Notes under the pieces: model-generated
Databases searched by the model: none
The model's input: the letters and a program-made list of their open reading frames with translations, nothing else
Told to the model about the DNA's origin: nothing
Program-made: the position numbers and the translations under genes
In this document: positions 7,183 to 37,088 of the stretch, in pieces
Layout: each line of letters opens with the position of its first letter
Position numbering within the stretch: position 1 is the first letter of the stretch
Source: a virus
Reading direction: 5' to 3' (one strand)
Virus record (IMG/VR): IMGVR_UViG_3300031772_000115
Span: 1 to 37,764 of that record
Length of the DNA stretch: 37,764 nt

Positions 7183-9219
7183 TTACTTAGAATAAGTATA
7201 TAGAATATTACCACAGTCCCATAATTTCATGTAATTACGTTCTATCATTATTTCTTTTTCGGTTTTATTTTTATCAAAACCTTGTTTCACCAATTCAGAC
7301 TTTCTGAATTTAAATCTATGAAGTCGTTTTGAACCGTTAGGCGTAACATACCAATAATTTGGTGCTGTATTATGAGTTAAAGTAAAATTCAATTTTTTAT
7401 ACAATTCTCCATTTGACCATCTTCTATCGGCATAAGAATAAATTGTATTCCAATTATAATTTAATTTGAAATGTGTCAATAGTTTGCTGGCTGCGCCGCG
7501 TACAATATAATCAATATCAACTGCAAATCTATTTAATTCCCAAGAACCTTGTGTAACTTTTCTACCCTTCGACAAATTATTTTTGCCAAAAGTCATAACA
7601 GAAACTAATTTGTTTCCGTAAAATAATCCCAAATTTATTGAAGAAATATCTCTACCTTGTAAATGATTTTTTTCTAAAAAATCATTTTTTATACTAGGGT
7701 CAATTTCAACAATCCTACACTTTCTAGCACTTATTTTAATTGCTGGAGACATATTAAGTATATGAAGTATCTTGCTTTTGACTAAATCTTTCCTAGTCAT
7801 CCATTCATCCTCTAAAATTGTTATCAGTTTATACCCCAAATCAGTACACAATTTGAGTTTGTTAAGATGATACATCTTATCTTTACCATTAATTTCACTA
7901 TGCCAATAAAGACCACAATATTCAATAGCCAATTTATGACTTGGAATAACAATATCCAATTCATAAGGATGTATAAGTTTCCTGTTATTATGCTGGCATT
8001 CAATACCCAACCCTGTAATAAAATCATATAACTCTATTTCAGAGACAGATCGATTTTTGGTTATTATGTCAATCCCATGAGAAACGAAAACAGATTTTAA
8101 AGTTTGTATACAACATTCCAACATTTCACACATTTGAGTCATGTTATATTTTTTATATAATTCAATTAATTTATCTTTATTATCTTTTATTTCCCATAAT
8201 TTTTTAGATATACTCGCATCGCTAATTGTTCGTAATTCACAACCCCAACGTTTAAGTAAACGTGGTAAATAACATTTAGATACTTCCAATAAATCTGCCA
8301 ATTCTTTGGTTGATACTCTTTCATTTAAATATAAATAAAATATTTTTTCTTTGGTAAGTTCTGGATGCTTAATAAAAAACATACGTTCATTTTCTTTTCT
8401 AGTATCAATTCCATTTTTGCGAAGTAATTTACTTAAACGTAATAATGAAATATTAAACTTTTTTGCTAATTCTTTTTGGTTAATATCTGTATTAAGATAC
8501 AAATCTATTATTTCATTTTTTGACTCTTCTATGCTAGTGTCTGACATAACCATAAAACTGTTTTTAATTTCAAAACCATGATTAATTAAAATAACTCTTA
8601 AAGTTTCATGACGACATTTTAATAGTTCTGCCATTTCAGAAATGTTATGTGTAGAATACATTTCCTCTAATTTTTTCCTATCATTCTTAATAGAGTATAA
8701 CTCATCACTTAATCTAGTTTCACTCGCCTCTCTTATTTTAACTCCCCATTCTTTACATTTTTTTCTTAAATACCCAACAGAAACTCCCATTAATTTAGAT
8801 GCTTCTACGAAAGTCAATCTCTTTAAAATATACAACTCTTCAAAATTTTCCTTTGTCAATTCAAGTTCAGCATTTCTTTGATTTTTTATAGATCTAGACT
8901 GAAACGATGGGATGCGTAATATATCATGATAATCAAGTATAGAAACAATCATACCTATTCCACAATCGAAAATTTGGCCTAACTTTTCTGTACTTAACTC
9001 TTTTTCATATAATTCACTGATATATTTTTTATCTAAAACTTTATCTATATATTGATATTTTAAATGTGTAAGCCATTGTGGTTTCAAAATATTTTTGGAT
9101 CGCAGAATGCGTTGAATTGGAATAACTGAGACATTGAAAGAAATAGCAATCTCTTTAACAGGCATATCCTGTTTATATAATTCGCATATTTTTTCTTCAT
9201 CAATAATAATTTTTTTCAT
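7183..9219 (-). CDS. Free-standing homing endonuclease: seven HTH units plus Vsr-like nuclease
   Basis: 678 aa. Residues 8-386 are a tandem array of seven helix-turn-helix units (about 8-45, 64-103, 122-163, 181-218, 234-274, 289-330, 348-386) sharing a pattern LY-x(4-6)-s-x-x-E-h-A-x-x-h-x-V/C-S-x-x-x-L-x-x-h-L-x-x-x-G-I. Residues 392-490 are a Vsr/EDxHD-type nuclease: ELDIVIP, then AIEYCGLYWHSE, YHLNK and ILEDEW hold the likely catalytic Glu/Asp/His residues. Residues 498-678 form another domain (INLGLFYGNKLVSVMTFG, then AASKLL and YSYADRRWSNGELY) that looks acetyltransferase-like. The family is mobile and typical of phage intergenic insertions. The gene sits between convergent structural genes, next to a 110-bp duplication. 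It uses ATG with a weak ribosome site, and it lies downstream of two terminators, so expression may be low. Confidence 0.85.
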   Translation of the reverse strand: MKKIIIDEEKICELYKQDMPVKEIAISFNVSVIPIQRILRSKNILKPQWLTHLKYQYIDKVLDKKYISELYEKELSTEKLGQIFDCGIGMIVSILDYHDILRIPSFQSRSIKNQRNAELELTKENFEELYILKRLTFVEASKLMGVSVGYLRKKCKEWGVKIREASETRLSDELYSIKNDRKKLEEMYSTHNISEMAELLKCRHETLRVILINHGFEIKNSFMVMSDTSIEESKNEIIDLYLNTDINQKELAKKFNISLLRLSKLLRKNGIDTRKENERMFFIKHPELTKEKIFYLYLNERVSTKELADLLEVSKCYLPRLLKRWGCELRTISDASISKKLWEIKDNKDKLIELYKKYNMTQMCEMLECCIQTLKSVFVSHGIDIITKNRSVSEIELYDFITGLGIECQHNNRKLIHPYELDIVIPSHKLAIEYCGLYWHSEINGKDKMYHLNKLKLCTDLGYKLITILEDEWMTRKDLVKSKILHILNMSPAIKISARKCRIVEIDPSIKNDFLEKNHLQGRDISSINLGLFYGNKLVSVMTFGKNNLSKGRKVTQGSWELNRFAVDIDYIVRGAASKLLTHFKLNYNWNTIYSYADRRWSNGELYKKLNFTLTHNTAPNYWYVTPNGSKRLHRFKFRKSELVKQGFDKNKTEKEIMIERNYMKLWDCGNILYTYSK

Positions 9220-31933: not shown

Positions 31934-32164
31934 TTAATATATTGGGTGTGGGTTTTTACTTTCTTGTTCAAACCGATCTTTTATAAAATCATGCATAACT
32001 TGCCTTTCAGCATGTGACATATTCATAATTTCTGTATATGAAACATACCCCCGCATAAAATATCCAAGCGAAAACACAGCATAAATTAGTTGTTTTGCTT
32101 CAGATTGAAGAGTGGCGATAAATTTACCAACCTCAGATGGTGCCTTCCATTTGAGGATTAGATA
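31934..32164 (-). CDS. -1 frameshift extension of the gp26-like gene (76 codons)
   Basis: Directly behind the gp26-like stop region, the -1 frame is open for 76 codons (first residues YLILKWKAPSEVGKFIATLQ, last residues ESKNPHPIY) and ends at TAA 31934-31936. Before it in this frame there are several stops and no ATG, GTG or TTG until codon 31, so it has no start of its own at the proper place. The junction is a seven-U run, T TTT TTT, in the right phase for a canonical -1 slip (32164-32170). The product would be a 344-aa fusion (268 + 76). The protein sequence is helical and well formed. Comparable frameshifts make the G and GT tail assembly chaperones of lambda-like phages. The site is strong by sequence; use of it is inferred. 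Confidence 0.75.
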   Translation of the reverse strand, partial: YLILKWKAPSEVGKFIATLQSEAKQLIYAVFSLGYFMRGYVSYTEIMNMSHAERQVMHDFIKDRFEQESKNPHPIY

Positions 32165-32967
32165 AAAAAAGTTACAGGGTTCATGGGTACTTCAATTTGT
32201 ATTTCTTTATCACAATCTTTACAAGTTGTTTTAAAAATTGTATCTGGACCCCAATCTCCAGCTTTTTCAATAGCTTCAGAAATTTGTTTCATCCAACCAG
32301 CGCCCAATTCATGAAGCCATTCCAAAATAAATTCTTTCTCTGTAATACCATCAACGCATTCAATAACATTAGAAACAGAAGACAATACTCTTTGTGTTAG
32401 ATATGCTATATCATTCATATCTTTATTTTGAATAGAAGAATCTTGCATCATTTCAATAACATTTTTAAAACGAATCGGTTGGATTTCTATATTTTGACCA
32501 TTAGGTAAGGTAAGTTTATAATTTTCCGTTAGTTTGGTTGGATCAATAACTTTTGCATTTTTCATAAAAACATTAATATCACAATTATAAGATTGTTCTG
32601 TAGCTTCCGGGGAGCAACGATGATTATAATTAATTGGTAACATAGGTCCAAAAGTAACTCTCTTGAGTGCCATAGTCAAGAAATCAACGTCTTTTGCAAA
32701 AAGTTCTAATGGTTTTTCTATATCTGGAATGCATCTATGAAAAACTTCTTCGATTGCGGTACCATTAATAAGTTTATCTGCGCTTTTGAATACTATCTCA
32801 TCGTATGTACTCATTGGATAAACATGAACCTCACCATTTTTAACTGACTGACTCAATTCACCATGTTTATAAAATATACCACCAGAAGGCAAATGAACCG
32901 TTTCTCCTGGTAATTTTATTCTTTCTAATAATGGATTAACTTTTTTAACCATCTGAACTTCTTCCAT
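32158..32967 (-). CDS. gp26: Baseplate hub/tail assembly protein (gp26-like)
   Basis: 269 aa; T4 gp26 is about 208 aa. It shows the T4 baseplate gp26 family pattern: IKLPGETVHLPSGGIFYKHG, then HVYPMSTYDEIVFKSADKLI, EVFHRCIPDIEKPLELFAKD and VDFLTMALKRVTFGPMLPIN. Two cysteine pairs, HRCSPEATEQSYNC and TCKDCD near the end, could bind zinc. AAGGAG precedes the ATG and TATAAGTA lies upstream. In T4 gp26 is a hub/assembly factor. Here the stop codon sits at the end of a seven-U run that opens into a 76-codon -1 extension, as in tail chaperone pairs. It lies divergently from the tape-measure candidate. Confidence 0.8.
   Translation of the reverse strand: MEEVQMVKKVNPLLERIKLPGETVHLPSGGIFYKHGELSQSVKNGEVHVYPMSTYDEIVFKSADKLINGTAIEEVFHRCIPDIEKPLELFAKDVDFLTMALKRVTFGPMLPINYNHRCSPEATEQSYNCDINVFMKNAKVIDPTKLTENYKLTLPNGQNIEIQPIRFKNVIEMMQDSSIQNKDMNDIAYLTQRVLSSVSNVIECVDGITEKEFILEWLHELGAGWMKQISEAIEKAGDWGPDTIFKTTCKDCDKEIQIEVPMNPVTFFI
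32164..32170 (-). other. Slippery heptamer T TTT TTT for -1 frameshift
   Basis: On the minus strand the codons ACT TTT TTT ATC TAA end the gp26-like frame. The heptamer allows both tRNAs to slip back one base, and the next -1 codons are TAT CTA ATC. The stop is two codons downstream. Confidence 0.7.
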
Positions 32968-33084: not shown

Positions 33085-35391
33085 ATGGCTACCAATGTCA
33101 CCGAACAACAATTACAAAAAACACTTGAAAAAGTTCTTGAGAATGCTGGCAAATTAAGTCGTGCCACTCAGTCTATTACTGAAGCGTTAAAGGACACGTC
33201 AGACAAATTCAAAAAAGGTCATTTAGAAAAAGCAGTAAAGAAAACTGCTGACGACATGGGAGTAGCCCTTTCTGGTGGTACAAAAGGGTTACAAAAATTC
33301 TTAATATCCTTAAACTCTCAAATCAAAGCATATGACGCAGTTACAAATTCTCTTGAAAAACTTGATTTTTCAAATGCAGAATCAATAAAAGCTTATAGAG
33401 ATTCCACAGCAGAATATCTCAAAGCAGCAAAAGATGCCGGACAACTTAAAACAATATTCGGAGCAAATTTACAACAACACGAAGCGTTAATTGAAAAATT
33501 CATTACTAATACTGCGAATGTAACAGAGGCAGACTTAGCAAGAATGGGAGCAGTTTTTCAAACATATACGCCAAAATTTCAAGCTTCAATTTCTTCGTCA
33601 ACTAACGCTCTGGATAAATTAAACAAAGAATTACAGAAAAATTCTGTCGGAGACGCGATTAGAGATTCAATTGAAAAACAAGGTGGTGTTGGGAAAGTTT
33701 TGACAGATGCAGCAAGTGGGCCAAATGGTATGATTAAATTTACCAATGCTCTCAAGGGGTTCTTTGCCAACCAATTAGTTAGTGGCATTCAAAAATTTAT
33801 AAGTCAAATGATTGACCAAGCCCGTGAATATCAAAAATATGGTGTTCAACCATATTACGCATCTTCTGCACGTTTGTTGTTACAAACAACAGATTTACAA
33901 AAAATAATGAATGAAAATAAAGACACCATATATGCAGTGAATGGTGGAGCTGAAGCATTCGCAGAGACATTAATTGGATTACAAACACAAACGATGGAAT
34001 TGGCTGGACAAGACCCAATCATGAGCGGAAAACTGGGCGCGGCGGCACAAACATTTACCACTCAATTAGCATCCAGCACATTAGGACTAACTGATCTAAA
34101 AAAGAGATCATCAGAATATTTAAGTGGAGTGAAAAATTTAACAAGAGCCACCGGTATGTCTGCGGAAGAAATTGTAAATTGGAATCAAACAATATTAGAA
34201 GATGGTGAAATTCGAGAAGGATTAGCAAAAGCAACCGCAGAAGAAAGACAAAATATTCTGAAGAATGTTAATGCACGAGTTGAAGAATTGAAAGCTATTG
34301 GATATACAACTGAGAAAGCTAAACAACTTTCTGTAGATTTCGAAAAATTAAGAAGAGCAGCCACACCAGTTCAAAGAATTCGGGGTGCTGCTCAGCTTGG
34401 AGTATTAGCTTCACAAGTAGGTATGAGTCCTGAAGATACTCGTAAATTAATGATTCTAACTAGAAAAAAACGTGATGCGGGAGAAGAAGCAGAATACGAA
34501 AAATTACAACAAGATTTGGGTAAAAGATATCAAGAAAAATTTAATCAATTAGATGCTGCATCAAATCCTTTTGCTGACGTTATGCAAAACTTATCTGGCA
34601 GAGTTGCAGAAGCGTTGCCCGGATTTAAGGCAGTTTTTGATTCAACAAGAGTTGAAGGAACCATTTCAGGCGGTAGAGAACGACAAGGAGACGCAGCAAA
34701 ACAAGGATTAGAAGTCGCAGGAGGGGTCGAAAAGGCAGTTCTAAAAGCAGGAGAAATAGCAGGATGGGTCGAAAAAATATTTAATTTTTTATCTGGGAAT
34801 GGTTTAGTTGGAGTAGTTGTAGGTCTCTTAGGTAGTATGTTAATGGGTGGATTTGGTGGTGTACTAAGTGGTATAGGTTCAATTATTGCCCTGATGAAAG
34901 GGGGTCTAGGTGGTGCTGGTGGCGGCGGTGGAATGACCGGAGCGTTAGGAAAAGCTGGAATTCTTGCGGCGACGGGTGTTGCAGCATACGAAGCTACTGG
35001 CATGATAATGAAAGAGACTGGACTTGATACTGCTTTAAGTAACAAAATTGCAGATTGGACATCAGAACCCGATCCAACCGCTACAACAACAATAGAACAA
35101 ATTAACGAACGACGTTTGAAACGAGGACAACCACCGTTAATAACGCCTCCTGGAGGTGCGCGACCAACTGCACCAGCTTCTGTCACAGAAACAACACCTA
35201 CAGCAGCCAGCGCTGATCCAATGCAATCGTTACTTAACCTAATGCATCAAGCAAAATCTGTGCAAGAACAAATAGCTTCGAACACTGCGGAGTTATTAAA
35301 GGCTTATGTTAATACAGAAGCAGTCAAAGCATTACTTGCACCTGGAATGCAACAAAAAGCATCAATGGAAGCAGCTAGGAAATTACAATAG
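33085..35391 (+). CDS. Tail tape-measure protein candidate
   Basis: 768 aa; T4 gp29 is 590 aa. Residues 1-550 are almost wholly helical and rich in Ala, Lys, Glu and Gln, with no metal or catalytic motifs. Residues about 567-613 are a Gly-rich hydrophobic stretch (VGVVVGLLGSMLMGGFGGVL, then SGIGSIIALMKGG) of the kind tape-measure proteins push into the cell membrane. The C-terminal 120 residues are Pro/Thr/Ala-rich and then helical. It is divergent from the gp26-like gene with its probable frameshift extension, the usual neighbour of a tape measure. A late-type CATAAATA lies upstream. If correct, the length would predict a tail somewhat longer than that of T4. Alternative: another large tail-interior protein. 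Confidence 0.65.
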   Translation: MATNVTEQQLQKTLEKVLENAGKLSRATQSITEALKDTSDKFKKGHLEKAVKKTADDMGVALSGGTKGLQKFLISLNSQIKAYDAVTNSLEKLDFSNAESIKAYRDSTAEYLKAAKDAGQLKTIFGANLQQHEALIEKFITNTANVTEADLARMGAVFQTYTPKFQASISSSTNALDKLNKELQKNSVGDAIRDSIEKQGGVGKVLTDAASGPNGMIKFTNALKGFFANQLVSGIQKFISQMIDQAREYQKYGVQPYYASSARLLLQTTDLQKIMNENKDTIYAVNGGAEAFAETLIGLQTQTMELAGQDPIMSGKLGAAAQTFTTQLASSTLGLTDLKKRSSEYLSGVKNLTRATGMSAEEIVNWNQTILEDGEIREGLAKATAEERQNILKNVNARVEELKAIGYTTEKAKQLSVDFEKLRRAATPVQRIRGAAQLGVLASQVGMSPEDTRKLMILTRKKRDAGEEAEYEKLQQDLGKRYQEKFNQLDAASNPFADVMQNLSGRVAEALPGFKAVFDSTRVEGTISGGRERQGDAAKQGLEVAGGVEKAVLKAGEIAGWVEKIFNFLSGNGLVGVVVGLLGSMLMGGFGGVLSGIGSIIALMKGGLGGAGGGGGMTGALGKAGILAATGVAAYEATGMIMKETGLDTALSNKIADWTSEPDPTATTTIEQINERRLKRGQPPLITPPGGARPTAPASVTETTPTAASADPMQSLLNLMHQAKSVQEQIASNTAELLKAYVNTEAVKALLAPGMQQKASMEAARKLQ

Positions 35392-35400
35392 CGAAACAAT

Positions 35401-37026
35401 TTAATTTTTCCAAACATAAACAGCATTTCCGCAATCCCATATACGATTGTATCCGTTTAATTGCATATTTTCCCATTCGGTTAGTTCTGGATCAAATATT
35501 GGCAAAAGCTTAAAAAGTTTATGTTTTTGAAATTTAATTCTCGATTCAAGATTTAAATCTTTTCCTTTTTTAAAATAAAAATAATTTGGATCAGAATTGT
35601 GTGTATGTGTATAACCTAATATTTTATACATATTTCCAGTTCCGTAGCGTAAATCACAATAAGATATAATTGATCGTGGTTTATATTTTTTAATAAAATA
35701 ACTGTGCAATTTACTGCTCGCTCCAACAACACTATTATTATATAAATTACAAAAACGTGTCATTTCATATTCACATTTTTTATCATATCTGGATTGTGCA
35801 AAAGACATAACAGAAACCAATTCATTTTTGTAAAATAACCCAAGATTAACAGTTGATCGTACATAGCCTTGAAGATGATTCTTATCCAAAAACTCTTTTA
35901 TTTTTTCTGAAGAGATCTCTTCAATTACACATTTTCGGGCATATATTTTATTATTTTTATTTAATAAATATAAAAGTTTAGATTTAATAATGTCTTGTTT
36001 TAAAATCCATTCATTTTGCCAAATCTGAATTAGATGGATTCCATTAGCATTACATTGTGTATATTTATTTAAATGATAATGTCTATCTTTACCTGATAAT
36101 TCTGAGTGCCAATATATCCCATGAACTTCTACAGCAAGATTAAGTTTTGGTATAAAAATATCTAACTCTTGTGGAGATATAACGTTGTAATTTCGTCTTA
36201 TTATTTCTAAATCAACATTGTTTTTCATAAATTCGTATATTTCATTTTCCAACATAGAAAACGAATAATATTTTACTTCAATAAAAAATTTTTGTAAATG
36301 TCTTACAACAGTTTTAAAATGAACGCCCAAACTTTCTGAAATTTCAAATACTTTCTTCTTTTCAACAATATGTTTTTGATACAACCAATCTTTGTCTTGT
36401 AATAGAGCAAAAACTTCTGTTGGAATATGACGTTGAGACTCATACAGGCCATCATCTTTAGTACAAATATTTTTTATTTTATTTTTTATTTCTTCTGATT
36501 CTGCAGGTGTTTTGGTACCAAATTTTTCAATGTTAGTTTTTACTCGTCGTGCTTTAACGGCAGCAACTTGAATAACATTTTCAACACCGTATCTTTCTAA
36601 ATTGGTGGTTTTTTGTTTTTGCTTATATTCCTGAGTTTGTATAGCAAAAGCCGCCCCATATCTTTCTATATTAGTTTCATTAGTTTTCTTAACAATAGAT
36701 TTTCTACCGACACCATATCTTTGAAGCTCAGTTTCTAGTTTTCGTTTTTTTAGATCTTTATCTTGCGTACTACAATATTGACTACAAAATTCTCGGTATT
36801 TTTGTTTTAATGTAGGCTGGGCGTCATCCCATTTAACAGGAACATCACAAACTTTACAGGTAGGTATTTTTTCAGTTTGGTTTATTAAATGAAAAAGTCT
36901 TTGTCGTGGAAAAGCAGGCTCTATTAAAAATAAAGTTTGTTCTTTTAAATAATTCGACAATGATGTTTTTGGTGATACTCTTTGACCACTATTATAAATT
37001 TCAATTAATTGTTCTAATGTATACAT
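35401..37026 (-). CDS. Free-standing homing endonuclease (zinc finger, YG repeats, HTH, Vsr-like nuclease)
   Basis: 541 aa from ATG 37024-37026 after GGGGAAAG. A longer reading from TTG 37050 has no ribosome site and is rejected. N-terminal C-x2-C (57-60) and C-x3-C (81-85) form a likely zinc finger. About four degenerate T-x-h-E-R-Y-G-x-x-N repeats follow (97-180), then one HTH (about 214-247). The nuclease (257-345) has ELDIFIP, LAVEVHGIYWHSE, YHLNK and WQNEW. A C-terminal domain (YGTGNMYKILGY) matches the end of the other homing endonuclease. The two proteins share nuclease and C-terminus but have different N-terminal DNA-binding parts. It sits 8 bp after the tape-measure stop and in front of the portal gene. 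Confidence 0.85.
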   Translation of the reverse strand: MYTLEQLIEIYNSGQRVSPKTSLSNYLKEQTLFLIEPAFPRQRLFHLINQTEKIPTCKVCDVPVKWDDAQPTLKQKYREFCSQYCSTQDKDLKKRKLETELQRYGVGRKSIVKKTNETNIERYGAAFAIQTQEYKQKQKTTNLERYGVENVIQVAAVKARRVKTNIEKFGTKTPAESEEIKNKIKNICTKDDGLYESQRHIPTEVFALLQDKDWLYQKHIVEKKKVFEISESLGVHFKTVVRHLQKFFIEVKYYSFSMLENEIYEFMKNNVDLEIIRRNYNVISPQELDIFIPKLNLAVEVHGIYWHSELSGKDRHYHLNKYTQCNANGIHLIQIWQNEWILKQDIIKSKLLYLLNKNNKIYARKCVIEEISSEKIKEFLDKNHLQGYVRSTVNLGLFYKNELVSVMSFAQSRYDKKCEYEMTRFCNLYNNSVVGASSKLHSYFIKKYKPRSIISYCDLRYGTGNMYKILGYTHTHNSDPNYFYFKKGKDLNLESRIKFQKHKLFKLLPIFDPELTEWENMQLNGYNRIWDCGNAVYVWKN

Positions 37027-37039
37027 GTTACACTTTCCC

Positions 37040-37047
37040 CATAAATA
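37040..37047 (+). promoter_or_regulatory. Candidate late promoter (CATAAATA)
   Basis: One mismatch from the late octamer, 41 bp before the portal ATG, just upstream of the homing gene's start on the other strand. Confidence 0.45.
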
Positions 37048-37088
37048 CAAGTAGTATATTCAACATTTAAGGAAATGTCAACTACAAT

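Follow-up and report, generated by a model that had tools for sequence, protein, structure and literature searches.

A Putative -1 Frameshift Site and Conserved Extension in the gp26-like Gene of an Uncultivated Virus and Its Relatives

The gp26-like Gene and Its -1 Extension

The window (the whole stretch of DNA that was analysed, positions 1 to 37,764 of IMG/VR record IMGVR_UViG_3300031772_000115) encodes on its minus strand a gp26-like protein of 269 amino acids (32158..32967). The protein matches the Pfam family PF12322 (T4_baseplate; E=2.9e-10, 40.7 bits, above the cut-off of 24.5) and PHROG 150 (baseplate hub; 8.9e-13) and contains CxxC motifs. The 3' end of the gene reads ATG AAC CCT GTA ACT TTT TTT ATC TAA, in which codons F267 and F268 lie on the heptamer T TTT TTT (32164..32170, minus strand) in the phase that is canonical for -1 slippery sites (X XXY YYZ). 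A single sense codon separates the heptamer from the 0-frame stop. A back-slip by one base after the second TTT would open a further 76 codons (YLILKWKAPSEVGKFIATLQSEAKQLIYAVFSLGYFMRGYVSYTEIMNMSHAERQVMHDFIKDRFEQESKNPHPIY), which run from 32164 to 31937 on the minus strand and are read only after the shift; the frameshift product would end at the TAA at 31936..31934. We refer to this extension as the putative TAC-C domain of a tail assembly chaperone (TAC), and to the 269-residue product as the putative short form, TAC-N.

A preliminary description of the locus had reported the heptamer in this phase, the gp26 stop two codons later, the 76 open codons and several peptide strings, all of which agree with the sequence and its translation. 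It had also stated that no usable start lies upstream in the -1 frame, and indeed this frame is shut about nine codons before the slippery site and contains no ATG, GTG or TTG between its last upstream stop and the slip. Within the window's extension the earliest start codons are a GTG at codon 30 and then an ATG at codon 37. The -1 opening exceeds what is expected by chance, since gp26 is the only one of the 29 window genes with a heptamer at most 60 bases from its stop and a -1 frame that is open for more than 41 codons and is not the next gene, and since alternate frames open for at least 75 codons occur at 0.47% of positions inside window genes. The extension alone gave no significant match to Pfam or PHROG.

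Downstream of the slip, a candidate stimulatory hairpin was predicted (32127..32161, minus strand; RNA fold of -13.3 kcal/mol, z=-2.3), with a strong stem that starts 7 nt beyond the heptamer. It may help the frameshift. The downstream regions of seven loci folded with z-scores of -0.4 to -2.5 and without a common form, and we therefore treat the hairpin as tentative, because its form is not conserved among relatives.

Conservation of the Slippery Site Among Relatives

A tblastn search of phage records with gp26 identified 62 relatives, none of which reaches 60% identity; most come from jumbo-sized T4-like genomes. All 11 phage records that were read carry the FF pair on T TTT TT(C/T), and about 70-80 open codons follow in the -1 frame. 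It was gp26 that supplied the relatives; a degenerate-pattern search with the extension alone returned none, and the extension's own matches, in XacN1 and Phosso, lay immediately after gp26. Viral contigs searched with a gp26 alignment contributed another 80 loci. Gp26 relatives with an open -1 extension and a conserved slippery run, for which the preliminary description had proposed to look, were thus found in 90 loci, the window included. Each of these loci has the two-Phe slippery site, and a homologous -1 extension of 69-80 codons follows at every locus that is not cut by a contig end; at 3 of the 90 the contig ends before the extension finishes. Stops or frame-breaking changes, which according to the same description would speak against a frameshift, were present in none of the complete loci.

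The virus is represented by one contig, a 37.8 kb record that is possibly a fragment, and the frame break could in principle be an assembly artefact or the extension non-coding. We give this explanation virtually no credence. The same frame relation recurs in the 90 loci, complete phage genomes among them, and the extension is under purifying selection (see below); the relatives thereby refute an artefactual or non-coding extension.

The complete loci comprise 68 distinct sequences, in which the heptamer is TTTTTTC (54 sequences), TTTTTTT (11), TTTCTTC (2) or GTTTTTT (1). T-TTT-TT(C/T) is hence present in 65 of 68 homologues, and a weaker slip site in the other three. Relatives with such weaker sites (L058, 3001-4073, and L038, L039 and L046; GTTTTTT or TTTCTTC) keep intact extensions, and they are natural variants that would be useful for measuring slip efficiency.

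The heptamer spectrum also bears on the possibility that RNA polymerase, and not the ribosome, slips on the poly-T run and produces a mixed mRNA population encoding the fusion. The run of seven T in the window would favour this, but 54 of the 68 sequences have six T followed by C and two have TTTCTTC, and homopolymer runs longer than these are generally required before transcripts slip efficiently in bacteria. The motif keeps a strict codon phase, as would suit tandem slippage of tRNAs, and we regard a transcriptional origin of the fusion as extremely improbable.

Both Phe columns are invariant in the 43 aligned gp26 proteins, and the 0-frame ends 1-11 codons after FF across the homologues. 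The residue before FF is variable (N, S, T, A, H, R, Y or D), yet the third base of its codon is T in 67 of 68 sequences, for which the naive log10 probability is -19.6 against gene-wide codon usage elsewhere, with the relatedness of the sequences ignored. The slippery nucleotides are therefore conserved beyond the amino acids that they encode.

Selection and Start Codons in the Extension

Among related extensions, pairwise dN/dS is mostly about 0.04-0.3. The pooled pN/pS of the extension is 0.25, and third positions of the -1 frame carry an excess of the changes. Judged from these substitution patterns, purifying selection acts on the extension in the relatives. Extensions of seven relatives match PHROG 18291, a family for which no function is assigned.

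AlphaFold2 (AF2) modelled the extension as all helices (pLDDT 86), in line with the well-formed helical protein end that the preliminary description had read from the sequence. The longest predicted helix spans residues 9-37. A fold search with this model gave no significant viral match and, in the PDB, only unspecific matches to small helical proteins (homeodomains, Z 3-4).

The extension could also be a separate small gp51-like gene, translated from its own start or by translational coupling near the gp26 stop. It is annotated as a separate ORF in XacN1, RAS14, Phosso, BF, GAP32, PBECO4 and S-PM2, and Phosso, Atu_ph07, PBECO4 and BF have an ATG on or close to the gp26 stop from which it could be translated independently. 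However, the GTG and ATG of the window lie inside or after the conserved long helix, and starting at either would lose most or all of it. Among the 68 homologues, the first start codons are scattered from codon 2 to codon 56, yet homology of the extension begins at the slippery site, where most genomes have no start codon. The preservation of slippery nucleotides beyond amino acid need likewise argues against a separate gene, and we consider this explanation very unlikely.

Structural Resemblance of gp26 to Tail Assembly Chaperones

The AF2 model of gp26, built with the 43 aligned sequences, has a pLDDT of 91.8. When 502 solved chains were re-aligned to it, residues 143-238 matched YqbN (3klu; Z 6.2, 82 residues, rmsd 3.2), which we take to be a TAC-like prophage protein, and the HK97 tail assembly chaperone (2ob9; Z 5.3, 90 residues, rmsd 4.1). 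The third match was 5ir0 (Z 4.4), and all other solved chains had Z of 2.2 or lower. The Foldseek E-value alone was not significant for the TAC match. With moderate Z-scores, the modelled structure is supportive but not decisive for a TAC-N fold in the short product of gp26. The chain 5ir0, which resembles the same residues 143-238, is ORF19 of a Vibrio cholerae PICI-like element; from the modelled resemblance, it is possibly a chaperone-like protein in a phage satellite.

Comparison with Lambda, HK97, T4 and S-PM2

In lambda (G/GT) and HK97 (gp14), a short tail assembly chaperone is made together with a -1 frameshifted long form, and this principle is established for lambda and many siphophages. 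The lambda slippery sequence is GGGAAAG. Part of the window's gp26 model resembles the fold of the HK97 chaperone, as described above, but the gp26-like protein differs from the lambda and HK97 chaperones in being larger and in having extra parts and CxxC motifs, and the tape-measure candidate beside it is divergently oriented.

T4 gp26 and gp51 are both members of PF12322. When the fused family (gp26 plus extension) was aligned as a profile, the match to T4 gp26 reached as far as the FF position (single-pair E 6.3e-9) and that to T4 gp51 covered its full length (single-pair E 5.9e-6, probability 85%). The extension alone aligned collinearly but weakly with the gp51 C-terminus (profile positions 202-255; hhalign probability 67%, single-pair E 5.3e-5), and the two have a pattern in common, P-x-E-I followed by an M-x-P-x-E-R-like segment. 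T4 gp51 can accordingly be described as a gp26-like protein with a C-terminal domain that aligns weakly with the window extension, while T4 gp26 has EFF-ELL at the position that matches the window's slippery site. Unlike the window, T4 and the other Straboviridae that were read have one gene for the short form and another for the long form, and T4 gene 26 has TTC TTT at the slip position and runs straight into gene 25. Cyanophage S-PM2 is closer to the window. Its gp26 ends TCT TTT TTC GCA TAA and the -1 frame runs into the annotated gp51, but the two are annotated as separate genes and the extension is shorter, about 61 codons. Given the matches to TAC structures, the gp51 alignments and the layout of S-PM2, gp26 looks like TAC-N, and gp26 with its extension looks like TAC-NC.

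Proposed Frameshift Mechanism

The anatomy of the site, its conservation, the selection on the extension and the resemblance to TAC structures together make it very likely that the gp26 gene encodes a tail assembly chaperone in a short and a long form by -1 ribosomal frameshifting. The G/GT-like frameshift joining gp26 to the extension, as the preliminary description had proposed it, is strongly supported by comparative genomics. We infer a ribosomal shift with an efficiency and a short-to-long ratio such that the majority of ribosomes would end at the gp26 stop codon and yield TAC-N, whereas a minority would move back by one base at the T TTT TTT heptamer and read 76 more codons. The resulting TAC-NC would have 344 amino acids and a C-terminal helical domain. 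If the two forms work as lambda G and GT do, TAC-N would bind along the tape measure protein as a coat, and TAC-NC would recruit tube subunits through its C-terminal domain.

Earlier Reports and Annotation

TAC-N genes of T4-like phages have been described as carrying poly-T frameshift signals (Vladimirov, Gautam and Davidson, Virology 2022, as cited in PMC12846349), and some T4-like phages are said to encode the short and long forms as separate genes (Vladimirov et al., 2022, as cited in PMC10885494). As far as these accounts of the study go, its T4-like TAC genes resemble the window in having a poly-T -1 slippery site in a gp26-family gene and in the TAC-N/TAC-NC scheme. By the same accounts, gp26 frameshifting in T4-like phages was already reported in 2022, and the window is a new example, not a new phenomenon. 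The view of the preliminary description that such a frameshift is not standard annotation for gp26 holds for database records, in which the extension is named hypothetical, predicted ORF or gp51, but the idea itself had been published. The abstract of the 2022 study reportedly gives T4 genes 26 and 51 as a separate short and long pair.

The further claim that ordinary gene callers would miss the extension is only partly correct, since the annotations of many relatives include a shortened version of it as an ORF of its own, beginning at an internal or overlapping ATG. Such starts occur in L004, L006, L012, L103 and other records, and these annotated ORFs lose the first conserved residues after the slip because of them. 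The second domain is in this way truncated or separated in many public annotations.

The wide set of uncultivated and jumbo phages supports the reading of T4-type gp26 as a tail chaperone gene with a frameshift. The slippery site, the conserved extension and the gp51 alignment connect gp26 and gp51, the hub assembly proteins of T4, with the G/GT mechanism of lambda in a way that can be tested. Tentatively, and with somewhat more doubt than confidence, we suggest that the tail chaperones of the wider T4 superfamily, jumbo phages and cyanophages included, might all go back to an arrangement with a single frameshifting gp26 gene, that T4 genes 26 and 51 might have arisen by a duplication that replaced the frameshift, and that many records might wrongly present the extension as an independent hypothetical gene or as gp51.

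The Tape-Measure Candidate and Other ORFs

The presumed client of the chaperone is a 768-residue tape-measure candidate (33085..35391, plus strand), which adjoins gp26 but is divergent from it and does not lie downstream in the same operon. It has no Pfam family above the cut-off, and direct BLASTP against the neighbouring genes of RaK2 and Phosso was not significant. Its name derives from synteny and weak similarity: it resembles a divergent gene at the same place in locus L014 (E=8e-8), and the RaK2 gene in the syntenic position carries an annotation of similarity to a tape measure protein.

Two other large ORFs on the minus strand, at 7183-9219 and 35401-37050, have C-terminal parts that are 39% identical over 350 residues. 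Weak matches of the first are restriction-endonuclease-like and Mom-like; the second matches DUF7487 and is located between the tape-measure candidate and the portal gene. Both are probably free-standing homing-type endonucleases.
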